From: Bacillaceae bacterium
GTDB lineage: Bacteria; Bacillota; Bacilli; Bacillales; Alkalibacillaceae
Direction: 5' to 3'
NCBI GenBank assembly: GCA_017656265.1
Contig: JACDOD010000008.1
Span: 62,001 to 126,000, forward strand
Length of the DNA: 64,000 bases
Part shown: piece by piece, positions 5,579 through 33,175 of the stretch
Numbering within the stretch: position 1 is the stretch's first letter
Layout of the letters: every line of letters begins with the position of its first letter
Position numbers and translations under genes: made by a program
Notes under the pieces: generated by a model
The model's database searches: none
Told to the model about the DNA's origin: nothing
Seen by the model: only the letters and a program-made list of their open reading frames with translations

Positions 5579-6772
5579 TTGGAGAGGATAATCATGAGAA
5601 AAATTCTGTATATGACCGCTCAATTGATATCGAATATTGGAGATGGGATGCAGCAAATCGCTTTGTACTGGTATATTTACTCCCTTACAGGCAGCCCTTT
5701 ATCCATTGGAATCATGATTGCCATTTATTATCTGCCATCTATGGGACTGTCACCATTTGCGGGTGCTCTTTCCGACCTGATCCACCCTAAACGGCTAACG
5801 ATCATTGTCAACTTCTTTCGAGGTATTGCCGTTTTCATACTGGCACTTGTCATCTGGTTTGAAGTCAGCAGCCTTTATTTTCTGTATCTATTTCAATTGA
5901 TCATGGCAATTCTTTATACGATTTATAAGCCAGCTTCACAGCGTTTTATTAAGCACACTTTTTACAGAAAAGAAATCCCATCTATCATGGCACTTTCCAA
6001 TTCTCTCGAACAAGTTGGGTATATTCTGGGAACAGGGTTTGCCGGATACTTGATTACAATCATACCTGCAAGCATTACCATCGGACTGAATGGTATATCA
6101 TTTATGCTGACAGGCTTACTGTTCCATTATATATCATTGGTTGCGAATCCTGAAAAGACAGTCAATCATCAATCTTATCGCTCCATGATTGCGGAAGGTA
6201 TACAATATATTAAATCTAAGCCTGATCTCAAATGGTTGCTGTTGATATCTGTCGTAGGAAGCTTTGGCCTACAGCTCACCATCACCGTCTTACCTGCACT
6301 GGCTAACCAATTAGGAGGATCTGGAAGTTTTTATGCAATCCTTGATATCACTTTTACAGCAGGAGGAATAGCAGCTGGTCTAATACTGGGGATCATTTTA
6401 AAAAAGCAGCCAAAAGGCGTGTTCTTTTGTACCGTGGCGGGAATGATGGGCACATCCATTGTCATTTCGATCAATAACAATGCAGCCATTGCCGTTCTGA
6501 TGCTATTTTTGTTTGGGATCTTTGTAACGGGGCATTTAATCGTCTCGCACACGTATATTCAATTAAGCTCTTCCCATGATATGATTGGAAGAGTTATAGG
6601 CGTCAGAACGATCCTTGCATCAGCGGTTAAAGTCACATCCTCATTGTTAACCGGCTTATTCGCTGCCAATTTTGGTGTTCATTTTATATTTCACATTTTT
6701 ACATCCTTGCTTCTCATCGCTTTAGTAACCCTCTTTCTGAGGAAAAGGTTTCAGAAGCAGTTAGCCCTTTAA
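5579..6772 (+). CDS. MFS transporter
   Basis: 397 aa polytopic; divergent from the LysR gene. Confidence 0.85.
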   Translation: MERIIMRKILYMTAQLISNIGDGMQQIALYWYIYSLTGSPLSIGIMIAIYYLPSMGLSPFAGALSDLIHPKRLTIIVNFFRGIAVFILALVIWFEVSSLYFLYLFQLIMAILYTIYKPASQRFIKHTFYRKEIPSIMALSNSLEQVGYILGTGFAGYLITIIPASITIGLNGISFMLTGLLFHYISLVANPEKTVNHQSYRSMIAEGIQYIKSKPDLKWLLLISVVGSFGLQLTITVLPALANQLGGSGSFYAILDITFTAGGIAAGLILGIILKKQPKGVFFCTVAGMMGTSIVISINNNAAIAVLMLFLFGIFVTGHLIVSHTYIQLSSSHDMIGRVIGVRTILASAVKVTSSLLTGLFAANFGVHFIFHIFTSLLLIALVTLFLRKRFQKQLAL

Positions 6773-19151: not shown

Positions 19152-19164
19152 CCCCTCTTCACTA

Positions 19165-19291
19165 CCCCTCAATTCTCGGTTTATACGCTGCCTTTTTTCT
19201 GATCCAGCTTCAGGATTTCCACGAGCTGTTCGGCCAAGTAGTTGGAACTGTATTTGAAGTCGCGGTTGACCCACTCGATGATCATACCCGC
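19165..19291 (-). pseudogene. 3' fragment of a TetR-family regulator (copy 1)
   Basis: Minus strand: AGMIIEWVNRDFKYSSNYLAEQLVEILKLDQKK then frameshift; close to copy 2 at 32752-32900. Confidence 0.7.
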
Positions 19292-19436: not shown

Positions 19437-19660
19437 AAACAGGGCTTGCTAGTGAGATATCAGGATTTACTAACGGGAAATCAGAGCTCGTGCGAGGAAA
19501 ATCAGGGCTTACGTACGAGATATCAGGTTTCGTGCCCAAGATATCAGGGCTCACCTACGATATATCAGGTTTCGTGCCCAAGATATCAGAGTTCACCTAC
19601 GAGATATCAGGGCTCACGTACAAGATATCAGGATTTGCGCTCGAGATATCAGGGCCCTAA
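19437..19660 (+). repeat. Imperfect 21-bp tandem repeat array (about 10 units)
   Basis: Units such as GATATCAGGTTTCGTGCCCAA / GATATCAGGGCTCACCTACGA; translates as heptads EISGLTY/KISGFVP without stops. Confidence 0.75.
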
Positions 19661-19935: not shown

Positions 19936-21268
19936 CTTGATATCCCACTACACAAACGGTTTTGGATATTCCGAAATCTATGGTCAATTTTGGATCCTTT
20001 ATATCCCACTACGTTCAGATAAAACGATTCGGTCAGCGAGGATTTATATAAGTACTGGAAAGCTTTATATCCCACTACGTTCAGATAAAACCAGAATATA
20101 TCCGGCCGCTTGTGCCAGGATACATTACTTTATATCCCACTACGTTCAGATAAAACCGTTTTCGGGCTGATCCTTTTTAATCTGATATCGTTCTTTATAT
20201 CCCACTACGTTCAGATAAAACCGTTTTCGGGCTGATCCTTTTTAATCTGATATCGTTCTTTATATCCCACTACGTTCAGATAAAACAATTGGGACTTGAT
20301 TATCATTGGACTAGAATAGAAACCCTTTATATCCCACTACGTTCAGATAAAACGAAAAGAATTTCAAAGTTGAGAATTATTTTTTCATCTACCTTTATAT
20401 CCCACTACGTTCAGATAAAACGAAGTCAGCAAGAAGGTAATCAGAAAAGCTATGAAAACTTTATATCCCACTACGTTCAGATAAAACGCGCAAAGACAAA
20501 CACCCAGCTATGAGTGATCTCCCTTTATATCCCACTACGTTCAGATAAAACGAAAACACCGCAGGCGTAAGTTTTTCCGGCGGTAATAACTTTATATCCC
20601 ACTACGTTCAGATAAAACTTAATAACCCCAATGTAATTAATGATACCAATTGCGGCTTTATATCCCACTACGTTCAGATAAAACACTCTCTCTACTGTCA
20701 AATATTCCAACAAAATCAACCTTTATATCCCACTACGTTCAGATAAAACTGTCTCTAACGTTTGAATGGCATTATCATTTGAAATCTTTATATCCCACTA
20801 CGTTCAGATAAAACGGCAGCTCTTCGTTGCAATACTTGCAGTGTTCTGTTCTTTATATCCCACTACGTTCAGATAAAACCTTGAACACCGAAACCATCCA
20901 GCTATGGACAAAACCCTTTATATCCCACTACGTTCAGATAAAACGCAATCATGCAAAGTGCCATACTCGGACTTGAACCCTTTATATCCCACTACGTTCA
21001 GATAAAACAGACTCAACCCCGACCCCACATGTTGAGCCGTACATCTTTATATCCCACTACGTTCAGATAAAACCTTCAGAAATCTCATTACATATATACT
21101 CCCAATTTTCTTTATATCCCACTACGTTCAGATAAAACGGTTTTCTGTTTTGATTTTTCGATCACAACCTGGTACCTTTATATCCCACTACGTTCAGATA
21201 AAACCATTCCCCAGGGACAAAGTCGCCGCGGCGATCAGCCTTTATATCCCACTACGTTCAGATAAAAC
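19936..21268 (-). CRISPR. CRISPR array 1: 20 identical 29-bp repeats, 19 spacers, plus one degenerate terminal repeat at 19936
   Basis: Plus-strand repeat CTTTATATCCCACTACGTTCAGATAAAAC (crRNA sense GTTTTATCTGAACGTAGTGGGATATAAAG) at 19997, 20063, 20128, 20193, 20258, ... 21240; spacers about 35-38 nt. Degenerate repeat on the left and leader-like sequence on the right imply leftward transcription. Confidence 0.98.
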
Positions 21269-21400
21269 CCTGAAAACTATAAAATCAGACCCCTTGTCTC
21301 ATAAGGGGTTAAGCACCATCCTTATCACCTAAGGATTCCTGATTTTGCAGTAAATCGTCAGTCGTGTTTTTAGAAAATTGATTAAATGATACTCTATCCC
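21269..21400 (-). promoter_or_regulatory. Putative leader of CRISPR array 1
   Basis: Shares TTTTGCAGTAAATC(G/A)TCAGTCGTGTTTT and CCCCTTGTCTCATAAGGGGTT-like blocks with the array 2 flank. Confidence 0.65.
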
Positions 21401-21496: not shown

Positions 21497-21760
21497 TCAC
21501 AAGAATAAATCTATTGGACTTTTCTCCTGGCCATAAATTATTTTTTGAATGTTACGCGGGTTCTTTACCTGATATAGATATATGGAATCTTCCTCTTCCT
21601 CAATTATCTTATGAAGCTCAGATAAGCATTCCGATAATTTTCCTTTGGATATCTCTCCCTCAAAAACGGAATTTTGTGTCCAATCCAGGTATTTTCTTAA
21701 TTTTTTACATACCTTACCCACTCTTTTCTCACCTACATCATAAGTAATGATCACAAACAT
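21497..21760 (-). CDS. cas2: CRISPR-associated endonuclease Cas2
   Basis: 87 aa: MFVIITYDVGEKRVGKVCKKLRKYLDWTQNSVFEGEISKGKL. Confidence 0.95.
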   Translation of the reverse strand: MFVIITYDVGEKRVGKVCKKLRKYLDWTQNSVFEGEISKGKLSECLSELHKIIEEEEDSIYLYQVKNPRNIQKIIYGQEKSPIDLFL

Positions 21761-21763
21761 AAA

Positions 21764-22750
21764 TTACCACCACACTTTCAAAGGTTTGTAATCCTCATCA
21801 CCAATAAAATGTTTCACTAACTTATAGCACTCTAGACGAATAAGGTAACGATAAGATGTGTTTCGTTTTAGTGAACGATGTTTTACGGTCTGTTTCAAAC
21901 GTTCTTCCCACGCTTGAATGAACCGTTTTTTCCCCTCTTCATTTAAATAACAAATTTCACCCTCGAGCTGATCAAAATGTGATGGAGTAATTCTGCGTTT
22001 GTTGATTAAAGATAGTATTATGGAATCAACAATTAATGGCTTAAATATTTCTGCTATATCAAGACTGAGTGAAAATCGTTTTGTTGACGGTTCATGTAAA
22101 TAGCTAATGGTTGGGTTTAATGGTGTTTTATATATTTCAGAAAGGATTACCTGATACATTAACGTATTACCAAATGATATCATGGCGTTTAGTGGATCCC
22201 GCGGAGGTTGTTTCTCTCTTCTCTCAATTGCAAAATCTTGCTTAACCATGTGGTTAAAAGCTTCATAATAAAGCTGGCGAATTTGTCCTTCTTTTCCCAT
22301 TAAAGTTGGAATATCAGTAGACGTTTGAAATTGTTGTTCTATTGCTTCTATTTCATCCATAATAGATTCCGTGTGGCTTTTATGCCTTCTTAAATTTCTT
22401 TGTATATGGTGAACTGCACCATGAAGAAATTGGAAAGCGAGTTTCATACGTTTGTAATGATCCAAATAATTTTCACTTTGCTTTACAATGACAAAGCCTG
22501 ACTCTTTCTTTTCTCTTGGATAAAAAGTTCCCGAATAATATCCATAATAGTTGTAAAAGGAAAGGAGAATCCCGTACTGGGTTAAATAACTCAAAAGTTT
22601 GCTATTCACATCAATTTCTCCAAAGAGATGAAGTGTTCTAATCTTCTCAATAGGCAATGGCTTCTTTTCACCGGATTCTTTTTCAAAATATATTGTATTA
22701 TCTTTTCGTTTTAATCTGCCGTTTGAAAATATATAATGATCACGCATCAT
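21764..22750 (-). CDS. cas1: CRISPR-associated endonuclease Cas1
   Basis: MMRDHYIFSNGRLKRKDNTIYFE...DPLNAMISFGNTLMYQV...SYLHEPSTKRFSLSLDIAEIFKPLIVD. Confidence 0.95.
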   Translation of the reverse strand: MMRDHYIFSNGRLKRKDNTIYFEKESGEKKPLPIEKIRTLHLFGEIDVNSKLLSYLTQYGILLSFYNYYGYYSGTFYPREKKESGFVIVKQSENYLDHYKRMKLAFQFLHGAVHHIQRNLRRHKSHTESIMDEIEAIEQQFQTSTDIPTLMGKEGQIRQLYYEAFNHMVKQDFAIERREKQPPRDPLNAMISFGNTLMYQVILSEIYKTPLNPTISYLHEPSTKRFSLSLDIAEIFKPLIVDSIILSLINKRRITPSHFDQLEGEICYLNEEGKKRFIQAWEERLKQTVKHRSLKRNTSYRYLIRLECYKLVKHFIGDEDYKPLKVWW

Positions 22751-23258
22751 CCTCTCCCACCTCCCTTGCAAAGCAAAATGCATAGTATGAACAAGATTTA
22801 CAGTAAGGCAACTTCTTGACAGGTGGAGGAGAAGGCTGTTCAATAATCTTATATACTTCTGCAATGGCTTTTTGTATTTTGTTACGGTTTTTGTCAGACA
22901 ACACTACTTCCAAAGTACGTTTTTCTTTTGTATAACTGATTAATCCTTTCTTTTCGATGCCCCTCATCGATAATTGATATAAATAAAATAGCATTTGCAG
23001 CTTGTCCGATTCCTTCATTTTACTTGAAATTTTCACTTCTCTTACATAACTTCCATCAATGGCATCTATCTTAAAAGCACCATCTATAAAAGTCTCTTTT
23101 TCCTTCAGCCTCGGATAAGAATTTTCATGGAGCAGCTTTCCCTGCATGACCCTGTCATGTTCCTCTTCCATCCCAATACCCTTACGATATAACCATAATT
23201 TCCGTTTACACAAAGAATAATAGTGAAGATCTACTCCACCTACAGTTTGATTAGCCAT
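22740..23258 (-). CDS. cas4: CRISPR-associated exonuclease Cas4
   Basis: MANQTVGGVDLHYYSLCKRKLWLY...C-terminal YCKSCSYYAFC Cys cluster. Confidence 0.93.
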   Translation of the reverse strand: MANQTVGGVDLHYYSLCKRKLWLYRKGIGMEEEHDRVMQGKLLHENSYPRLKEKETFIDGAFKIDAIDGSYVREVKISSKMKESDKLQMLFYLYQLSMRGIEKKGLISYTKEKRTLEVVLSDKNRNKIQKAIAEVYKIIEQPSPPPVKKLPYCKSCSYYAFCFAREVGEDDA

Positions 23259-23274
23259 TTTTATCCTTCCTTTT

Positions 23275-25494
23275 CTAATCAAATATACTTTCAGACTGGT
23301 CCAGGAGACCTTTCTCATTGGAGTAGTCACAATGGATACAGTACAACCCTTTAAGATCATCCAAAGGAGTTATTCCTATTTTCTTTGCCCGCCATTCATT
23401 TACATTTACACTATATCGTTCAAGATGTTTTCGATATCTACGCTTATCCGCTTTTGATTGGGACTGCTTCCATTTATTATAAATCTCCTGGAATTCCCGT
23501 TGTTCGGCATATTGTATGGGGACAGCTTGTACTTGCTGAATATCGCGTAGCAAATCTTGAGCCTCTTGTTTTTTTATTTCATAATGCGGGCGATTTGTTA
23601 ACTGTTTTAATGTAAGGTCAAATTCCTTTTTAAATGATGTGCCTTCAAGGGATTTTTCGTTATATAATTCTTTAATCATTCGATGTTTAACAGACTCTAA
23701 CAGCAATCCTTTGCTATACTGTTTTAACAACTCAACACTCCGTTCATAAATATCATAGTGATATACAGATTTTCGTCCCTTTTTAATTCCTGAAACATCT
23801 TGAGTGAAAATGTGGATATTAGGCTGGTCAACTGGTTTCTTACCCTTTCGATTACAGCGTCCATAACGCTGAAACTGACTGTCCAGTGTAGACATCTCGG
23901 TGAAAAGAAGATCAAAGTCTATATCTAGACTAGCCTCTACTAACTGTGTAGTTACCCAGACACCCGGAAGATCGTTCCTATTAAACTCCATGATTTTTCC
24001 TTCTAAGTCAGCCCGATCTTTTTTTATAAATCTTGAATGAAGTAATGTTACATCCACCTGTCTTTCCTTTAGATCATCATATGTCTGCTGCGCCTTATCT
24101 ACTGTGTTGCAAATCACAAGGATCTTATTTTTGATACTTTTCTCCTTAATCTCATTCATAACCTGTTCATCTAAAACCGATTCATCTCTGACTAAAATAT
24201 GATGACGCTTAATTGAATCATCAATAAATTCGCCATATGTTATTGGAAGACGAGAGCTTGACAGTTCCTTTTTTAATGCTTTTACGTAATAATCAGGTAG
24301 TGTTGCCGTCATGATCATAAATGATCCGCCAACTTCATCTATTAACTTCATCGCACGTATGAGCAAAGCTGCAATTCTGGGATCATAAGCCTGCAGCTCA
24401 TCTATGATAACTTTTGAAGTAGCCATAGTGGCATATTCTTTTTCAAAACCAAGATAATAAAACGGAAATTTAAGAATTTGATCGATGGTTGAAATAATCA
24501 GTTTATTAGCAAACTCCTTTGACTGGCTATGAATTTTTTCAAGAAGTACGTCATCGCCTTCAATTTTGTCATATAAATAATCAAGACTTGTTGAATGAAG
24601 AAGACCAGTCGCTTCCTCACCAAATACATTCTTTCTGGTAAAACCTATATTTTCTGGATCTGTAATACGGTCAAACATCGCATTAATACTGACTCTGAGG
24701 GGGAGTGTGAAAAAACCTTTATTGTTTCCCAGCCATAAAAGCCCGGCTTCTGTCTTGCCCATTCCTGTTTGTGCAACAACCACAAGATGATGATTCTGAT
24801 TCTTTTCTGTAAAGGTTTGCAAATGATTTTTTTCTACTTTTAATTTTGCTGTGAAAAATCGATTGACATGGTCCGCTACGTTCATATCGATACCAAGTTC
24901 GATTGGTACATGTGCAGAAGCAGCATGATCTAGACGATGTAAAAGTCCCTTTAGTAATACATAACGGTAATAAAGGGAATCATCAGGCTGAATGCGTTTC
25001 TGTTTTTCAATTAAATTCATTTTTGAGGGACGCGTTTGTTCTTCTATCGGGATTCCCATATGCTCCTCAATATCGTTTTTGTAAGGCAGTACATTTTCCT
25101 GGTAAACCTGAACAACCTCAGATTTATCAGGCTTAACAGCCCGTTCATGATGAAAGGCAACTATTTGGGTAACCAACTTTTTTTCTTCACAGTCGAGTCC
25201 TAATTTTTTAAATGGAATACACATAACCGAAATAAAGTTGTGTGGAATCGAATGATTCACTGAGACGTTTATCTGAGGCTTTCCAATGGCCTGGCGTAAT
25301 TTATTTTGAAATGCCAGGTCAGCCTTTCCAACATCATGATACTTAACTGCTATTTCAAGGAGTTCCCAGTCTCGTTCTGTTAAATGATGTAGTTGGGATT
25401 GATACAGATTTTTAAAGTGCTTAAGGCGTTCTTGAAGTTGATCGGTATGTTCCTTTATCGTTTCAATTGGATTAGATTTGGCATAAAAGATCAC
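23275..25494 (-). CDS. cas3: CRISPR-associated helicase/nuclease Cas3 (HD + DExD)
   Basis: HD motif KYHDVGKADLAF; Walker A AQTGMGKTEAGLLW; VIIDELQAYD; QRYGRCNRKGK. Confidence 0.95.
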   Translation of the reverse strand: MIFYAKSNPIETIKEHTDQLQERLKHFKNLYQSQLHHLTERDWELLEIAVKYHDVGKADLAFQNKLRQAIGKPQINVSVNHSIPHNFISVMCIPFKKLGLDCEEKKLVTQIVAFHHERAVKPDKSEVVQVYQENVLPYKNDIEEHMGIPIEEQTRPSKMNLIEKQKRIQPDDSLYYRYVLLKGLLHRLDHAASAHVPIELGIDMNVADHVNRFFTAKLKVEKNHLQTFTEKNQNHHLVVVAQTGMGKTEAGLLWLGNNKGFFTLPLRVSINAMFDRITDPENIGFTRKNVFGEEATGLLHSTSLDYLYDKIEGDDVLLEKIHSQSKEFANKLIISTIDQILKFPFYYLGFEKEYATMATSKVIIDELQAYDPRIAALLIRAMKLIDEVGGSFMIMTATLPDYYVKALKKELSSSRLPITYGEFIDDSIKRHHILVRDESVLDEQVMNEIKEKSIKNKILVICNTVDKAQQTYDDLKERQVDVTLLHSRFIKKDRADLEGKIMEFNRNDLPGVWVTTQLVEASLDIDFDLLFTEMSTLDSQFQRYGRCNRKGKKPVDQPNIHIFTQDVSGIKKGRKSVYHYDIYERSVELLKQYSKGLLLESVKHRMIKELYNEKSLEGTSFKKEFDLTLKQLTNRPHYEIKKQEAQDLLRDIQQVQAVPIQYAEQREFQEIYNKWKQSQSKADKRRYRKHLERYSVNVNEWRAKKIGITPLDDLKGLYCIHCDYSNEKGLLDQSESIFD

Positions 25495-25541: not shown

Positions 25542-26240
25542 TTATTGATGGAAAAAAGTAATATCTTTAAATGGATCTACATATAATTCATCAAAATTTT
25601 CAATAAATTCACCAGCTTGAACATAACCGACATGAATCTTTTCCCACACTCGTACTCCGTTCTGAATGCGGTATTTCCAATTCAGTTTATAAGGAAAGTG
25701 AATTTCTTCTTCAATGAATTTCATAGGTATATATGCGTTATATGTCAGCTGTGGTTCTTCTTTACACCGACTTAGTTCGACTATTTCACATTCATCTATA
25801 CGAACAAGGTCCTCCCACCTTCCTAAACTTAAATGATGGTTGGCTTTACCATTTATTCTAGCTTTCAACTCATGAAGGACCTCATCCTCAGCCAGTACAT
25901 GAATCAATAAGTGAACGTTATACAAAAGGTGCATGTAAATTGGCATCGTTGTTATGTCACTCATTTCCCTTTGAACACCCAGACCATCTGCTGTAAGTGC
26001 AAATTCATTTGTTTTATCTTTTTTGAAAAAATAGTGTGTCTGATAATCTGTTACAAGAGTATCGTAATTTCCCTGAACACTGATTCTCATTGGAATAAAA
26101 GATGTTGCTTCAAGAGCTGAATGCAGCATACCTTTAACCGTTGAATATGGAGGCAGGGGGTAGGTTTCCGACACTTTAAAAGCAAACGGTTTTTTATAAC
26201 AGGCTGTCTGCTGATACAACTTTAATCTAAGAGCTTTCAT
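25542..26240 (-). CDS. cas5: CRISPR-associated protein Cas5 (type I-B)
   Basis: MKALRLKLYQQTACYKKPFAFKVSETYPLPPYSTVKGMLHSALEA. Confidence 0.93.
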   Translation of the reverse strand: MKALRLKLYQQTACYKKPFAFKVSETYPLPPYSTVKGMLHSALEATSFIPMRISVQGNYDTLVTDYQTHYFFKKDKTNEFALTADGLGVQREMSDITTMPIYMHLLYNVHLLIHVLAEDEVLHELKARINGKANHHLSLGRWEDLVRIDECEIVELSRCKEEPQLTYNAYIPMKFIEEEIHFPYKLNWKYRIQNGVRVWEKIHVGYVQAGEFIENFDELYVDPFKDITFFHQ

Positions 26241-26241
26241 T

Positions 26242-27135
26242 TTAAACGGTCACTCCATAATGATCCGCGACCTTTTCTTTCATGGATGAGAAAAATTCTT
26301 CAATAGATCCTGCTCTGTCACCCGCCAGCTCTGCAAATTGTTCTTCATTGCCAAATAAACCTGAAACATAACCTATATAGGTATTTTCATCTACTTTTTC
26401 CCCCGCAAAAGTAGTCTCTAAAACGTCTTCTAAAGCTTTTACATTAATATTGTAGCTTTTCTTCCTAGGTTCCAGAGTAACTCGACCAAGAAAGAATGGG
26501 TTAGAAACTGAATATACTCCACCAATAACAAACAATGGCGCAAGGCTTTCCTGACGACCTCGAATATTACGATTCAATAGCTTCAAGATGTCCAGAAGCT
26601 GATAAATACGGTTAACACGTTCTTCTTTTGGAAGCTTAACATCCCCATCTACCCCTACTTTATCCAGGTCAAGCGTAATTGTGTAAGTATAGAGACTTTC
26701 ATGTTGTTCAATATTAGCAAGGTTTGGAGTCTCTCCCACCCTTTCTGCCAGTCCCATATTATTGAGGAACTCTAGATCACTGCGATACGGTTCCAGAGAG
26801 ACAGCATGTGATAATCTTGCAACTGCCGGGCGTTTTTCAGATTTTTTTCCTGTTTTTAGATATCCAAAAAAATCCATTTCTGCAGAATCTTCAATAGTTA
26901 CATCATCTTTAAATTGAAGAGTCCCTTTTTTCTTATCCACTGTATCTAGATTCCACTCAAACCACTCGTTACCTAACCGTACAATGTCATACCTTATGCT
27001 TTGGCGTGATACAAAGGTCAGCACGTCACCATTCCCGCGATGTATTTTTTTCAACTCAGAAATATTCGCAATTCCTTCTCCGTAATTTAAAGAATTAGCA
27101 CGAAAAACGACCGTAAATGTTAAACCTTTACCCAT
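26242..27135 (-). CDS. cas7: CRISPR-associated protein Cas7 (Cst2/DevR-like)
   Basis: GKGLTFTVVFRANSLNYGEGIANISELKKIHRGNGDVLTFVSRQSIRYD; DevR/Cas7 family pattern. Confidence 0.93.
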   Translation of the reverse strand: MGKGLTFTVVFRANSLNYGEGIANISELKKIHRGNGDVLTFVSRQSIRYDIVRLGNEWFEWNLDTVDKKKGTLQFKDDVTIEDSAEMDFFGYLKTGKKSEKRPAVARLSHAVSLEPYRSDLEFLNNMGLAERVGETPNLANIEQHESLYTYTITLDLDKVGVDGDVKLPKEERVNRIYQLLDILKLLNRNIRGRQESLAPLFVIGGVYSVSNPFFLGRVTLEPRKKSYNINVKALEDVLETTFAGEKVDENTYIGYVSGLFGNEEQFAELAGDRAGSIEEFFSSMKEKVADHYGVTV

Positions 27136-28924
27136 TGTTCAAAACCTCCTCTTTTTTAACTGATGAATCTTGCCCTAACATTCCGGCAATAAATGCACTG
27201 GCAATCGTTTCAAAATCAAGTCCTTCTTCTTTGAAGGAATCAACAAACACACCTGGAACCTTAAGATCAGTGCCCAAGTATAAGCGGAATATTGTATCCA
27301 TAAACGCCTGTTTGTTACCTGCCTTGACAGCATTGATAAGTCGATAAGCAATTCCTTCTAATTTTTTTCTGCCGCTTGCACGATATGGTCCATCTCCTGT
27401 TTGATTGTCCCGGCTGTTTACCATTTGTTCACGCAACTCTACTCCACGGTAATAAATAAAAGAAATCAGTTTATCTTGACTTCGCATATCTTTCACCCCT
27501 TTTTTTGCCTGTAATATTCGCTGCCGCTCACGAACAGCATGAAAAGCACCCTGGCCATGATACGGATTGGAAATGGTTTCCCTCAAATACTCAAAAATCA
27601 CCTCGATCGGGTCTATTCCTTTGAAAATCGTTCTGAGAAAAGCATCACGCAGGTCTCTATGCTGCAGCCATTTCAATCCCTTCCCATATTCAGCTAAATA
27701 CCTGACTAAATATGTAGGCATATGATAGTAATCAAGTAATGTTTTCTTTGCCTGATAATCAGAATGAACCTCTAAGAAAAAATAAGAATTATTTATTCGC
27801 TCGGCTTTATCCAGCGACTCCTGTAGCACATTTACGATTGCTTCTCCGAAAGTAGACCCCTTAGAACGTAAGTCACGATAATGATGATTAAGTTTCATAA
27901 TGTTAAAAAAGGATTCTTGTGACAGAATCAGTCCTGCATAACGAAGTGTTTCATTTGCTTGAGCACTTCCTACTTTTCTTGAATAGAATGCCATTCCTAG
28001 CGGTGACATAAATAATATGAGCCTTGCAACCGAACTCAAGGGAACTGGCTGCTTCTTATCAAAATCCCAGTGGAAATTCACTGCTTTACTTTTCGAAAGA
28101 GCCAGAGGTGAAAAAACCATTTCTTCATAAGATTGAGTAGCCAATAATCCGTCAATAAATGAGCATGGAAGTGCATGTTCCTTAAAATACTGCTTAACTA
28201 GATCAATTGATTTGAGTTTTTTGACAATTTTCAGCCAATCTTTAAACGGTTTGTAATCCTGGTGTTCGGTCAAAAAATCTATGATTTCTCCTGCTTGGTT
28301 ACCCGATTTCAGGAACTCTGAAAATTTTAATTCTAAATAAGCAGGCTTTACAAAATCCTTTTCAATTTGTTCAACATGTTCTTCTGTACTTTTAGCATTA
28401 AATGAGGGCTGCAGAATGCTTGTCTGACCAAAGAAGGGATTTAGTATAACTGCTTTAACATAATTGAGAGTTAGCTTTTCATTGATTAATTTTGATGAGG
28501 CATACTTCCTATACATTTCTATCGATTTTTCAGTATTGAGTAGATCTTTTTCTTGTTTTACCCCTTTGACTTGTTCCACAATTTCACTTAATTTCTTATA
28601 ATCCTCTGTATCTTCAAAATACTTCTTTACTTTTTTTACCTGCTCATTCATCGTTCTTCTAATTTCTGTTGCATATTGCTTGATGCGGTCAGGATTTTTT
28701 TTCATTTGGTTGAAGTACCAGTTCATGCGACTAATATCTCTTTCAACTACACTGAACCGTTGAATCAATTCATAAATATATTTTTCTGCTAAACCATTTA
28801 ATGATTCAGCATTTAACGTAACCCCATTATCGCTAAAAGTGATCTGGTTCTCATCTAACAACTGTGTCAACCCTATTAATCCAGCTGTCATAGCCCATTC
28901 TTCAGCCTCAATATATATCGACAT
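27128..28924 (-). CDS. CRISPR-associated large subunit Cas8 (type I-B-like)
   Basis: 598 aa between cas6 and cas7; position plus length fit Cas8b; sequence otherwise divergent to my reading. Confidence 0.8.
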   Translation of the reverse strand: MSIYIEAEEWAMTAGLIGLTQLLDENQITFSDNGVTLNAESLNGLAEKYIYELIQRFSVVERDISRMNWYFNQMKKNPDRIKQYATEIRRTMNEQVKKVKKYFEDTEDYKKLSEIVEQVKGVKQEKDLLNTEKSIEMYRKYASSKLINEKLTLNYVKAVILNPFFGQTSILQPSFNAKSTEEHVEQIEKDFVKPAYLELKFSEFLKSGNQAGEIIDFLTEHQDYKPFKDWLKIVKKLKSIDLVKQYFKEHALPCSFIDGLLATQSYEEMVFSPLALSKSKAVNFHWDFDKKQPVPLSSVARLILFMSPLGMAFYSRKVGSAQANETLRYAGLILSQESFFNIMKLNHHYRDLRSKGSTFGEAIVNVLQESLDKAERINNSYFFLEVHSDYQAKKTLLDYYHMPTYLVRYLAEYGKGLKWLQHRDLRDAFLRTIFKGIDPIEVIFEYLRETISNPYHGQGAFHAVRERQRILQAKKGVKDMRSQDKLISFIYYRGVELREQMVNSRDNQTGDGPYRASGRKKLEGIAYRLINAVKAGNKQAFMDTIFRLYLGTDLKVPGVFVDSFKEEGLDFETIASAFIAGMLGQDSSVKKEEVLNNG

Positions 28925-29649
28925 TAATGCACCTCCTCTCCCTCATATGTTAGCAATCCAAAATATGTTGTTCTTTTACCAATACCCAGTTTGTAAAGGA
29001 TTTGTAAGTCATCTGGGTGTCCCGATAATTTGAATGAACCTCTGTATGCTGTGAAGAATAAAGAGGAATTCTGGTGTTTCTTCTTAAAAAATCGGTTACT
29101 TTCTTTTATAACGGTTTTTTTCATGTTAATCGGTGTAAACTGAAGGGGCTGGTACAATTTCCGATTGGCAGCACGTTCTATCTGGAGATTAGCAAAATAA
29201 TTTAGTTCTTTTTCATACTGTTCATCTGTAGGAGATAGTGGATTTCCTTTTCGGTCTTCAACTAAAATCGGGGACAAAGTTTTCATATAAACACTATTAG
29301 TAGTGATTGTTGCTTCTTTCAAAATCTGAATATTTTTTTGCTTCCAGGTCACTCCATCAATCTCATATGTTTTTAATTGTTTAAGACCGTTGAAAGCATG
29401 CACAGCAAATTCCATCTCTGAACTGACGGTTATGGTAATTTCCTTCACTTGAATACTATCACTAGAAACTTTGAAATCTTTTAAATATGTTGCAAACGAA
29501 AATGGCTTTATTTCGTTTTTATTCTTGATGAACAATGTTTTGTAATATAATTCATCTTCATTTTTTATGGCTTCCTTAATTAAGCTGTAAACTTTCATTC
29601 TGTAATGAAGAGGAAGCCTGTCTACTTTATATGTTACGGCGAACCTCAT
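28924..29649 (-). CDS. cas6: CRISPR pre-crRNA endonuclease Cas6
   Basis: MRFAVTYKVDRLPLHYRMKVYSLIKEAIK...; C-terminal glycine-rich loop LYKLGIGKRTTYFGLL. Confidence 0.93.
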   Translation of the reverse strand: MRFAVTYKVDRLPLHYRMKVYSLIKEAIKNEDELYYKTLFIKNKNEIKPFSFATYLKDFKVSSDSIQVKEITITVSSEMEFAVHAFNGLKQLKTYEIDGVTWKQKNIQILKEATITTNSVYMKTLSPILVEDRKGNPLSPTDEQYEKELNYFANLQIERAANRKLYQPLQFTPINMKKTVIKESNRFFKKKHQNSSLFFTAYRGSFKLSGHPDDLQILYKLGIGKRTTYFGLLTYEGEEVH

Positions 29650-29689
29650 AAAACCACCTCCCTTTCTTATATTAATTTTATTGCTAATA

Positions 29690-29718
29690 ATATTACATCA
29701 AATCCCTCATTTGGTCAA
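29690..29718 (-). promoter_or_regulatory. Predicted sigma-A promoter of cas6-cas2 operon
   Basis: Minus strand TTGACC-17 bp-TAATAT (-35 at 29713-29718, -10 at 29690-29695), about 41 bp upstream of the cas6 start. Confidence 0.7.
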
Positions 29719-29821
29719 TGTTACCATGTGAATTTATAGAATTTATTCGTTTAAGATAGTTCCATTATATTTTTTCATATGACAATAATTGTCATGGGAA
29801 CATATTTTCCTTTAAAAACAT

Positions 29822-29931
29822 AAAAAAAATGACGAGAAATACTCGTCAATCCCCACTGCGTTCAGATAAAAGTTATACATTTTGAAAAAAATAATATAAG
29901 AATTTTATATCCCACTGCGTTCAGATTTTTT
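29822..29931 (-). ncRNA. CreR-like degenerate mini-CRISPR (psi-repeat / psi-spacer / psi-repeat / terminator)
   Basis: psi-repeats at 29903-29931 and 29844-29872 (both CACTGCG instead of CACTACG), 30-nt spacer 29873-29902; hairpin TGACGAGtatttCTCGTCA + T8 directly after the second psi-repeat; spacer matches the cas promoter region. Confidence 0.8.
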
Positions 29932-29936
29932 ACAAT

Positions 29937-29965
29937 AGTATACAGGACTCTACTTGTTATTTCCA
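29937..29965 (-). promoter_or_regulatory. Predicted promoter of the mini-CRISPR RNA
   Basis: Minus strand TGGAAA-17 bp-TATACT, -10 six bp upstream of the first psi-repeat. Confidence 0.55.
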
Positions 29966-30979
29966 TCCCTCTAATGAACGGTTATTAATTGTCTTTTCAT
30001 ACCTTTTTACTAACTCTTTATATTCATGTCTTAATTTTTCACGAACTTGTGCTGGTGAAAGAACGGTTGCATTTAACCCAAAAGAGCGTACCCAGCGAAG
30101 AAATTCCTCTATACTTTTGACAGTCACTTTTAATGTCACTGAGCCATCTTTATGTCGTTCAATTTCTGGGTCAACATTAAACGGTTGTTCTAAAACATAG
30201 CGAGCTACATCCGAATCAAAATGAACCACAAAAGTAGTTCTAATTCCTTCATCCATGATGGACCAACGTTCAGACAAAAAGCGATCAATGCTAAACTCTT
30301 TAGGAATAAAAAAGGATTCCTCTGTTAGTCTTACTACTTTGAAACGATCCAGCCTAAAAACTCGTTCTTCTTTTCGAATATGACAATACGCAACTAGATA
30401 TAGATGCCCTTCTCGCATAACAAAAACATAAGGATTGAGTTTCCGTGTATTATGATCGTCACGTGATATTGTATAGTAATCGGCTTCAACAACTATATTT
30501 GCTGCCATGGCATTAATCATAATGGGCAGGATTTTATTATCCTGAAGGCATTTTGAACGGTTTTGAAATACAATCCTTTCATCTAATATAAGATCTATGC
30601 TTGATGAATCTGTCTGTTTAACAAACCTTGATACTTTTTCTATACCTTTTTTATAGGCAAGGTGCAGAGGATGGTGATCTGATAATTTTCCAGTAGACAG
30701 AAAAGGAAATAATATTAGCGCCATAAATTCATCAAGCGTAAGATGATTTCCGATTCTTGCTGGACTATGTATTAATTTATAGCCATATTTAGGATCAACA
30801 TGAAAATAAAATCCTACTTCTTCGAGTTTTTTTATATCCCTGTAAATGGTACGTTGTGAAGCATGACAAAGGTCAGCTAAAGTTCTTGAACTGGCATATT
30901 CATGATTTGTCAGATAATTAACTATAAAGAAAAGACGTTCAATATGGTTTAATTTCTCTGGATACGTCATCCTTTCCAC
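29957..30979 (-). CDS. HTH/WYL-domain transcriptional regulator (CRISPR-associated)
   Basis: HTH ASSRTLADLCHASQRTIYRDIKKLEEVGF; WYL-like core ...YVFVMREGHLYLVAYCHIRKEERVFRLDRFKVVRLT. Confidence 0.9.
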   Translation of the reverse strand: MERMTYPEKLNHIERLFFIVNYLTNHEYASSRTLADLCHASQRTIYRDIKKLEEVGFYFHVDPKYGYKLIHSPARIGNHLTLDEFMALILFPFLSTGKLSDHHPLHLAYKKGIEKVSRFVKQTDSSSIDLILDERIVFQNRSKCLQDNKILPIMINAMAANIVVEADYYTISRDDHNTRKLNPYVFVMREGHLYLVAYCHIRKEERVFRLDRFKVVRLTEESFFIPKEFSIDRFLSERWSIMDEGIRTTFVVHFDSDVARYVLEQPFNVDPEIERHKDGSVTLKVTVKSIEEFLRWVRSFGLNATVLSPAQVREKLRHEYKELVKRYEKTINNRSLEGWK

Positions 30980-31042
30980 ACCTTTCAGTGAATGTTGAAA
31001 CTATTTCATTAACTCCCTGGTGAGATTCCAGTTGTTTAGATG

Positions 31043-32511
31043 ATTTATACCCGCAACGTTCAGATAATATCTAACCCTTATTTAATGACCTCCAAAACAA
31101 ATGTTATTTATATCCCACTACGTTCAGATAAAACTGATTTTTTGTAAAATGATTTACCTTATTATCTGAACTTTATATCCCACTACGTTCAGATAAAACT
31201 TGCCGTATTGTGCGTCTTGCAAGACTTCCTCGATCTTTATATCCCACTACGTTCAGATAAAACCCTGAAGTTCTTCATCCGTCATCTTTTCAAAATATCC
31301 CTTTATATCCCACTACGTTCAGATAAAACGGTCGTATTCGGGTTCGCCTTCCTCATTTTTGCCCGCCTTTATATCCCACTACGTTCAGATAAAACTATAA
31401 AGGGGCAGAAAAGGCATTAGATGCGACCAACTTTATATCCCACTACGTTCAGATAAAACTGAGGCATTCTTAGCAAGATGTGAGTTTGGTGGAAACTTTA
31501 TATCCCACTACGTTCAGATAAAACAAGAAAATCATACTGCTTGGATTGTCTCTATAGTAATCTTTATATCCCACTACGTTCAGATAAAACGCTTAATTCT
31601 TCGTACACAGCTACTCCGTAAATTTTAGCTTTATATCCCACTACGTTCAGATAAAACAGTCAAATATATCCTTAGGCAATTTGCTCCAATTCCCTTTATA
31701 TCCCACTACGTTCAGATAAAACGAAATTCAAGTAACAAAGGAAACTAGAGGTCTACTTGCTTTATATCCCACTACGTTCAGATAAAACGTTGTGAATGGC
31801 CACACCTTCAAAAACTGATCCCCCCTTTATATCCCACTACGTTCAGATAAAACAATTGATGTTGCGTTAAGAGAAGTTATTGAATTGACACTTTATATCC
31901 CACTACGTTCAGATAAAACATTCCTAAACCGCCAAAGCCGATTGTCATGGCTGAAAACTTTATATCCCACTACGTTCAGATAAAACTTCATAATCCCCAT
32001 GTGAACTAACATGACAGATAGTTCACCTTTATATCCCACTACGTTCAGATAAAACCATTTCCGTTGTCATACATATCGTTGTATTCTTCTTCTTTATATC
32101 CCACTACGTTCAGATAAAACAATTCCGCCATTTGCAGGATATTCAAGTTCTGTCACTTTATATCCCACTACGTTCAGATAAAACAACCATTGATGAAGTA
32201 AATGCAATTAGTTGGTAAGGCTTTATATCCCACTACGTTCAGATAAAACTTACTATTTTGAATCGCTTTTACGATCCCCTGATCGGCTTTATATCCCACT
32301 ACGTTCAGATAAAACGCTCACGAACGCCTCAAACCCATCGTCCTCTTCTTTCTTTATATCCCACTACGTTCAGATAAAACGTAGCTGATCGTCAGCTTCG
32401 CCGTTGTCGTCCTCAACTTTATATCCCACTACGTTCAGATAAAACCTAACTGTTCATCCATAAAAGCATCCCAGCCATCAGCCTTTATATCCCACTACGT
32501 TCAGATAAAAC
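31043..32511 (-). CRISPR. CRISPR array 2: 22 repeats, 21 spacers, plus one degenerate terminal repeat at 31043
   Basis: Same 29-bp repeat as array 1 at 31106 (C1->A), 31171, 31235 ... 32417, 32483; degenerate repeat ATTTATACCCGCAACGTTCAGATAATATC at 31043. Confidence 0.98.
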
Positions 32512-32700
32512 CCTAAAAATTAGAATAGCTGAAACCCTCATGTCTCAAGGGGTTGAAACATTTCCATAATTGTACGAAAAGCTTTATTTTGCAGTAAATC
32601 ATCAGTCGTGTTTTCCAGGTTTTAATCAGATTCCTCTCAATCCCTTGTGGCTCAAGGCCTTATGTGCTCTAACCCAAAATTCTGATTTACTGCAAATCGC
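32512..32700 (-). promoter_or_regulatory. Putative leader of CRISPR array 2
   Basis: Shared leader blocks with array 1 flank (TTTTGCAGTAAATCATCAGTCGTGTTTT; TGTCTCAAGGGGTT). Confidence 0.65.
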
Positions 32701-32751: not shown

Positions 32752-33175
32752 TCACTCCCCCTCTACCCTCGGCTTGTACGATGCCTTTTTCTGATCCAGC
32801 TTCAGGATTTCCACGAGCTGCTCGGCCATGTAGCTGGAACTGTATTTGAATCCGTTGTTGACCCACTCGATGATCATCCCGATAATCGCGTACACCCGGT
32901 AACTGGCATGAATTTATCGGTTAATTTTTGGATTAGGTGAGGATTCATCCAGATCCTTAAGGGCGAGATCACGCAAAACCTTTCCAATCTTCATCTGAAA
33001 GCCAAACAGAGTACTGGATCTATAAAGCAGCGTGTAAAAACTGGCATATTTGTACACATGGTCGAACACCTTAGCCACCTATGATGTCAGGTTTTTCATT
33101 TCCGGGGTGCGGGAATCTTTATAGGTGTCGCGGTAGGATGCCCAAAAAGGCATCAGATGTAACACCATCGCACCT
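32752..33175 (-). pseudogene. Decayed TetR-family regulator (copy 2, C-terminal two thirds, two in-frame stops)
   Basis: Minus strand: MPFWASYRDTYKDSRTPEMKNLTS*VAKVFDHVYKYASFYTLLYRSSTLFGFQMKIGKVLRDLALKDLDESSPNPKINR*IHASYRVYAIIGMIIEWVNNGFKYSSSYMAEQLVEILKLDQKKASYKPRVEGE*. Confidence 0.8.

Follow-up and report, generated by a model that had tools for sequence, protein, structure and literature searches.

The window analysed here, a stretch of DNA of 64,000 nucleotides, contains a minus-strand operon, cas6-cas8b1-cas7-cas5-cas3-cas4-cas1-cas2, in which all eight genes of a type I-B system of the Cst kind were found. One CRISPR array lies downstream of the operon and another lies upstream, beyond a gene for a WYL-domain regulator. 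Between this gene and cas6, outside the arrays and on the same strand, an ectopic mini-CRISPR of two repeats was read directly from the sequence. The features of the region are as follows.

19936-21268, minus strand: CRISPR array 1, repeat GTTTTATCTGAACGTAGTGGGATATAAAG, downstream of the cas operon
21497-21760, minus strand: cas2 (TIGR01573, 3.7e-13)
21764-22864, minus strand: cas1 (TIGR03641, 2e-135); true start probably internal to the ORF
22740-23360, minus strand: cas4 (TIGR00372, 4.6e-22)
23275-25494, minus strand: cas3 (TIGR01587, 7.6e-77; TIGR01596, 4.7e-22)
25542-26240, minus strand: cas5 (TIGR01895, 7.4e-39)
26242-27135, minus strand: cas7/cst2, DevR family (TIGR02585, 3.3e-60; PF01905 DevR)
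27128-28924, minus strand: cas8b1/cst1, Cascade large subunit and PAM reader (TIGR01908, 6.9e-07)
28924-29649, minus strand: cas6, crRNA-processing endonuclease, first gene of the operon (TIGR01877, 3.4e-23)
29654-29663, minus strand: cas6 Shine-Dalgarno sequence AGGGAGGTGG, read directly
29661-29663, plus strand: PAM CCT, read directly; the complement, AGG, falls within the cas6 Shine-Dalgarno sequence
29664-29679, plus strand: core of the target (protospacer), 16 nt, matched except at position 12; the whole frame of 30 nt ends at 29693
29690-29718, minus strand: candidate sigma-A promoter of the cas6 operon, TTGACC (29718-29713), 17 nt, TAATAT (29695-29690); consensus match only
29822-29848, minus strand: intrinsic terminator, 7-pair hairpin (29848-29830, TGACGAG-TATTT-CTCGTCA) followed by T8
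29844-29872, minus strand: psi-repeat 2 (psi-R2), CTTTTATCTGAACGCAGTGGGGATTGACG, read directly
29873-29902, minus strand: psi-spacer (guide), TTCTTATATTATTTTTTTCAAAATGTATAA, 30 nt, read directly
29903-29931, minus strand: psi-repeat 1 (psi-R1), AAAAAATCTGAACGCAGTGGGATATAAAA, read directly
29937-29942, minus strand: candidate mini-CRISPR -10, TATACT; consensus match only
29965-29960, minus strand: weak mini-CRISPR -35, TGGAAA; consensus match only
29957-30979, minus strand: WYL/WCX-domain transcriptional regulator (PF13280, 8.9e-16; PF25583, 1.4e-16; PF08279, 3.4e-09), upstream of the mini-CRISPR
31042-32511, minus strand: CRISPR array 2, with the repeat of array 1, its last (low-coordinate) repeat degenerate; upstream, beyond the WYL gene

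The two degenerate repeats around a 30-nt spacer, and the hairpin with T8 directly after the second, had been proposed in a first-pass annotation and are confirmed by direct reading. Each psi-repeat is identical to the array repeat at 22 of 29 positions. In psi-R1 the 3' part is retained (GTGGGATATAAAA, the crRNA 5' handle) and the 5' part is degenerate; in psi-R2 the 5' part is retained as far as the expected Cas6 site and the 3' part is degenerate. Retention of these two ends is what would be expected of a unit that has to yield one crRNA. The terminator overlaps the end of psi-R2, and two terminator-like sites were found where 0.7 would be expected. The repeat core CACTGCG has two copies in the genome, which are the two psi-repeats, and CACTACG has 42 array copies. 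The annotation was thus right that CACTGCG sets the psi-repeats apart, but its statement that every array repeat has CACTACG is slightly overstated, because the leader-distal terminal repeat (~31042) is degenerate in another way. It had also called a sigma-A promoter for cas6 and a -10 for the mini-CRISPR; the consensus matches are present, but in this AT-rich region such calls are no better than chance (8 promoter-like sites found, 7.4 expected). Rfam returned nothing beyond sub-threshold CRISPR repeat matches, and the predicted folding of the mini-CRISPR is not unusual (z -1.4).

The plus strand from 29664 reads TTCTTATATTAATTTTATTG, and the psi-spacer matches it at positions 1-16 with a sole mismatch at position 12, as previously claimed; here the matching stops at 16. 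The 30-nt target frame, 29664-29693, spans the Shine-Dalgarno sequence to the candidate cas6 -10. The score counts matched positions from the 5' end until a mismatch is met anywhere but at positions 6, 12 and 18, where mismatches are allowed. The psi-spacer scores 15, a value that none of 3,000 shuffled spacers (mean 5.9) and none of 3,000 shuffled target regions (mean 4.6) attained, so that the match exceeds all 6,000 shuffles. Plain identity over all 30 nt was rejected as a measure, since shuffles often equal the observed value (304 of 3,000, not significant). The signal lies in the PAM-proximal half because full-length identity is ordinary for AT-rich sequence. On both strands of the 64 kb window, the cas6 target is the top non-self match, and the next best scores 12. 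A search of the whole 3.2 Mb genome found TTCTTNTATTANTTTT in the target and the spacer itself and nowhere else; the 16-nt word with positions 6 and 12 free likewise finds the promoter and the spacer only, and when CCN is added and one mismatch allowed, the target alone is left.

The trinucleotide 5' of the protospacer is CCT, in agreement with the earlier reading, and it fits the PAMs published for the closest characterised systems, those of Clostridioides difficile (YCN; PMC8406132) and the I-B1 system of Thermotoga maritima (YYD; PMC13199841). The array spacers of the window's genome gave no convincing match to sequenced phages, so its PAM was inferred from relatives, whose array-spacer phage matches have CCA in six of eight cases, CCG in one and TCA in one, a YCN pattern with which CCT is compatible. 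The nearest to the window system is L030, with a Cas8 57% identical to that of the window, which has a 35/35 protospacer with CCA in Aeribacillus phage AP45. Array spacers of L062, L075 and L034 had no convincing phage match, and weak matches of L059 spacers to Aeromonas and Escherichia phages were not used.

Related loci were collected by Cas6 and Cas7 searches, which gave 82 distinct type I-B (Cas8b1/Cst) loci from Bacillota and a few other groups; one search for related loci with Cas6 alone found none, and the Cas7 alignment did find them. At each locus the bases after repeat-like sites were compared with the locus's own cas6-upstream region on both strands. With positions masked as above, 14 sites scored at least 13 against their own locus in a single round, two of them representing a single locus retrieved twice (L045, L095); spacers compared with the promoters of other loci reached this score 3 times in three full rounds. 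Without the mismatch mask, almost all of the top matches again lay at psi-repeat sites and had CC in the PAM, although neither of these searches selected for a PAM. A third search, requiring CCN and the handle, added L077, L091 and L111; its cross-locus control gave 6 matches in four rounds. The final list holds 17 loci including that of the window, 14 of them from the unmasked set. Thus, 16 other loci among the 82 have an ectopic repeat and a spacer matching their own cas6-upstream region, and the recurrence of such matches, anticipated in the first-pass annotation as a check, is confirmed with sequences that differ from locus to locus nearly every time. Taxa represented include Aneurinibacillus, Paenibacillus, Domibacillus, Alteribacillus, Aliibacillus, Ureibacillus, Lederbergia, Sporotomaculum, Sporolactobacillus (L045, the same locus as L095), Clostridium cadaveris and others. 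L111 (C. cadaveris) is a tentative member, its second repeat being distant and rearranged. Most relatives have their target 13-28 nt before the cas6 start, and in many a hairpin and T-run directly follow psi-R2.

Several candidates were dropped: L085, L104, L083 and L096/L103/L110 lacked a CC PAM or a repeat, and L054 was an array repeat matching itself. L107 is doubtful and was left out of the count, as was L043, where an array spacer scores 12 with the PAM CGC. This L043 spacer, near the leader-distal end of an array that stops ~970 nt before cas6, agrees with the cas6 promoter at positions 1-14 except 6 and 12, possibly by chance. About 65 of the 82 loci had no such element by the survey method, and the element is therefore not needed for a working I-B system. 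On the Cas7 tree its presence requires 15 changes, compared with 15.7 in shuffles; this scattered distribution says nothing about a single origin.

All 17 targets have a CCN PAM (CCT in 10, CCA in six, CCC in one). In many loci, including that of the window, CCN by itself is partly explained by the coincidence of the PAM with the complement of the Shine-Dalgarno sequence. The weight of the PAM evidence is carried by L034, L042, L061, L064, L073 and L077, because elsewhere the CC comes with the Shine-Dalgarno sequence.

When the 14 unmasked loci are aligned at the PAM, positions 1-5 and 7-11 match in 14/14, position 6 in 9/14 and position 12 in 6/14; positions 13-16 match in 13-14/14, and from position 17 matches drop to 2-8/14. 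Of the mismatches within positions 1-14, 13 of 14 fall at 6 or 12 (P 1.3e-10 if evenly spread, the loci not being fully independent, since L039 and L063 are congeners). Only a mask at every sixth position recovers as many as 13 loci; masks with other offsets recover 3-4 and those with other periods 3-8, the 8 of period 4 arising because it also frees position 12. Positions 6 and 12 are bases flipped out in Cascade duplexes, and in the I-B1 system of T. maritima binding is unaffected by a mismatch at position 6 but abolished by mismatches at the seed positions, 1-5 and 7 (PMC13199841). The match ends at 16-18 in nearly all relatives. One guide, changed at positions 13-14, is shared by two Domibacillus species, D. 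robiginosus (L063) and D. indicus (L039, identical with L068), and in this pair position 14 is altered in both guide and target.

CreR is the cas-regulating RNA of modulatory mini-CRISPRs (reported by Liu et al., 2023, in Cell Host Microbe). It is crRNA-like, is made from a mini-CRISPR, is partly complementary to the cas promoter and mediates autorepression by Cascade; it has been reported for types I-B, I-E and V-A, and its response to crRNA load and to anti-CRISPRs has been described (PMC12737573, PMC13131331, PMC12948488). The window locus has ectopic psi-repeats flanking one spacer, a significant partial match to the promoter and a compatible PAM, and the arrangement recurs independently with the Cascade pairing signature. 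Its match length (16 here, 16-18 in relatives) agrees with the CreR feature of complementarity too short for cleavage. These features suggest that the element is very probably a CreR, a mini-CRISPR RNA that guides the type I-B Cascade to repress its own cas operon. The first-pass annotation had proposed CreR-like autorepression, and the shuffles, the PAMs of relatives and the recurrence in 16 loci all support it at the level of sequence.

The mechanism that we infer begins with a stand-alone mini-CRISPR RNA, which would be transcribed, cut by Cas6 and loaded into the adjacent type I-B Cascade. Cascade would read CCT, and the first ~16 nt of the guide would pair with the cas6 leader/-10 DNA, the flipped position 12 being skipped. 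The short R-loop would block transcription of the entire cas operon. With pairing ending at ~16 nt, Cas3 would not be licensed to cut, so that the outcome would be repression and not self-destruction. By analogy, repression may ease when ordinary crRNAs occupy Cascade or when an anti-CRISPR disables it.

Other explanations must account for the same observations. An antisense small RNA could pair with the cas6 mRNA leader beside the Shine-Dalgarno sequence and block translation without Cascade, and at the window locus and in most relatives the guide is indeed complementary to the mRNA strand at that place. RNA-RNA pairing does not, however, predict mismatches concentrated at positions 6 and 12. 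In L034, L073 and L077 the guide runs in the same sense as the target transcript, which makes pairing between the two impossible, but CCN and the sixfold pattern still hold there, and in L042, L061 and L064 the PAM is not a Shine-Dalgarno sequence. The mismatch pattern, together with the tolerance of position 6 in T. maritima, and the sense-oriented guides lead us to prefer Cascade acting on DNA, and an antisense RNA is very unlikely.

Two degenerate repeats and a partial match to a nearby promoter also define CreA (PMC9458426), and the guide might accordingly repress a small toxin gene and so addict the cell to Cascade. The only matching promoter in the genome apart from the spacer itself, however, reads directly into cas6 through a short leader with no separate gene after it, so no toxin gene was found under the target promoter, and this also applies to most relatives, with their targets 13-28 nt from the cas6 start; such a module is extremely improbable here. 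We give as little credence to a dead array remnant whose match is due to chance or is a relic of self-acquisition. Array 2 does lie just upstream, and the corresponding units of L052 and L063 are themselves leader-distal ends of real arrays, but the match is unequalled in 6,000 shuffles and unique in the genome, and the psi-R1 handle, the psi-R2 5' half and the terminator are all retained. Decay would also erase the covariation of guide and target that recurs with different sequences. A CreR acting through Cascade remains the preferred reading.

From all the loci together, and with modest confidence, we lean toward a wider proposal. Autorepressing guides of Bacillota I-B systems would pair fully over positions 1-16 except at the flipped 6 and 12, and not beyond; this pattern would be selected at both ends, and guide and promoter would co-evolve across genera. 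The cut-off at ~16 nt would be a selected ceiling at which Cascade is bound and Cas3 is unlicensed, and some elements (L034, tentatively L111) would target the mini-CRISPR's own promoter in a second feedback layout.

In the autorepression of SpyCas9 the guide does not come from a mini-CRISPR but is the long-form tracrRNA, which serves as a natural single guide. As proposed here, the Cas effector of that type II-A system represses its own operon through a guide of limited length, and anti-CRISPRs relieve the autorepression (PMC13131331; PMC11417352). The scaRNA of Francisella novicida Cas9 is also a guide with a degenerate repeat, and its 15-bp match lies in a 5' untranslated region where the Cas effector represses transcription without cutting; in contrast to the window element, it works with a type II effector on a lipoprotein operon and not on cas (PMC9458426). 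CreA of CreTA is located between cas6 and cas8 in haloarchaea such as Haloarcula hispanica and shares with the window element type I-B, two degenerate repeats of which psi-R1 is the more diverged, a psi-spacer partly matching a neighbouring promoter, and Cascade as the repressor (predicted here); its target is a toxin gene with a TTC PAM, whereas that of the window element is the cas6 promoter with CCN (PMC9458426). With CreR the element shares the crRNA-like mini-CRISPR guide, the partial cas-promoter complementarity and the putative autorepression by Cascade. CreR in type I-B is already known, and the window locus is, as far as can be told, a new member; the 16-nt match rule that skips every sixth position is a result of the present analysis and, across 14-17 loci, may be new.

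The rule offers a test for self-regulating CRISPR systems that needs sequence only: an ectopic repeat is located, the next 16 nt are taken with positions 6 and 12 free, and CCN plus this word is sought in the cas promoter. The 17 natural guide-target pairs are an evolutionary record of Cascade-DNA pairing and suggest how much pairing is tolerated on the cell's own chromosome before cutting endangers it. The R-loop length needed to license Cas3 in type I-B thereby becomes directly testable.

The CreR units upstream of cas6 in L052 and L063 form the leader-distal ends of genuine CRISPR arrays, and array ends are therefore a likely origin of CreR elements. In L034 (G075, 6500-6560) the guide is directed at the promoter of the mini-CRISPR itself, whose extended -10 it matches (CCT PAM, positions 1-18, one mismatch at 12), rather than at a separate cas6 promoter. 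Since no terminator-like site lies between target and cas6, this element may repress itself and cas together. A second such case may be L111, where, ~180-250 nt upstream of cas6, the guide possibly aims at the region preceding its own first repeat; a short tandem duplication accompanies the second repeat, which is ~110 nt distant.

The WYL/WCX protein is a possible second regulator of the locus. A WYL regulator often lies directly upstream of cas6 (the window, L032, L057, L058, L049, L086, L087, L101, L102 and others), and occurs together with CreR only in the window and in L049 (a fragment); the two may therefore be alternatives. Four Anoxybacillaceae loci with no CreR (L035, L037, L038, L040) have in common, immediately before cas6, a motif like TTTGAC..AACGACAACATTTTC, which another regulator may bind. 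L037 (the same as L071, Geobacillus thermocatenulatus) has a 45-repeat CRISPR array inside the cas operon, between cas8 and cas7. In L044 (G168) cas6 is in two pieces ~2.1 kb apart, and the sequence just upstream of the second resembles an IS21-type transposase helper gene. In the window, near-identical leader regions flank both arrays (21342-21370 and 32586-32614), as do 19159-19288 and 32752-32880 further out, where a stretch of 95 nt is 92% identical. A 21-nt tandem repeat with nine register shifts occupies 19438-19655; the 90-aa ORF that contains it encodes repeated 7-residue units, for example EISGLTY.
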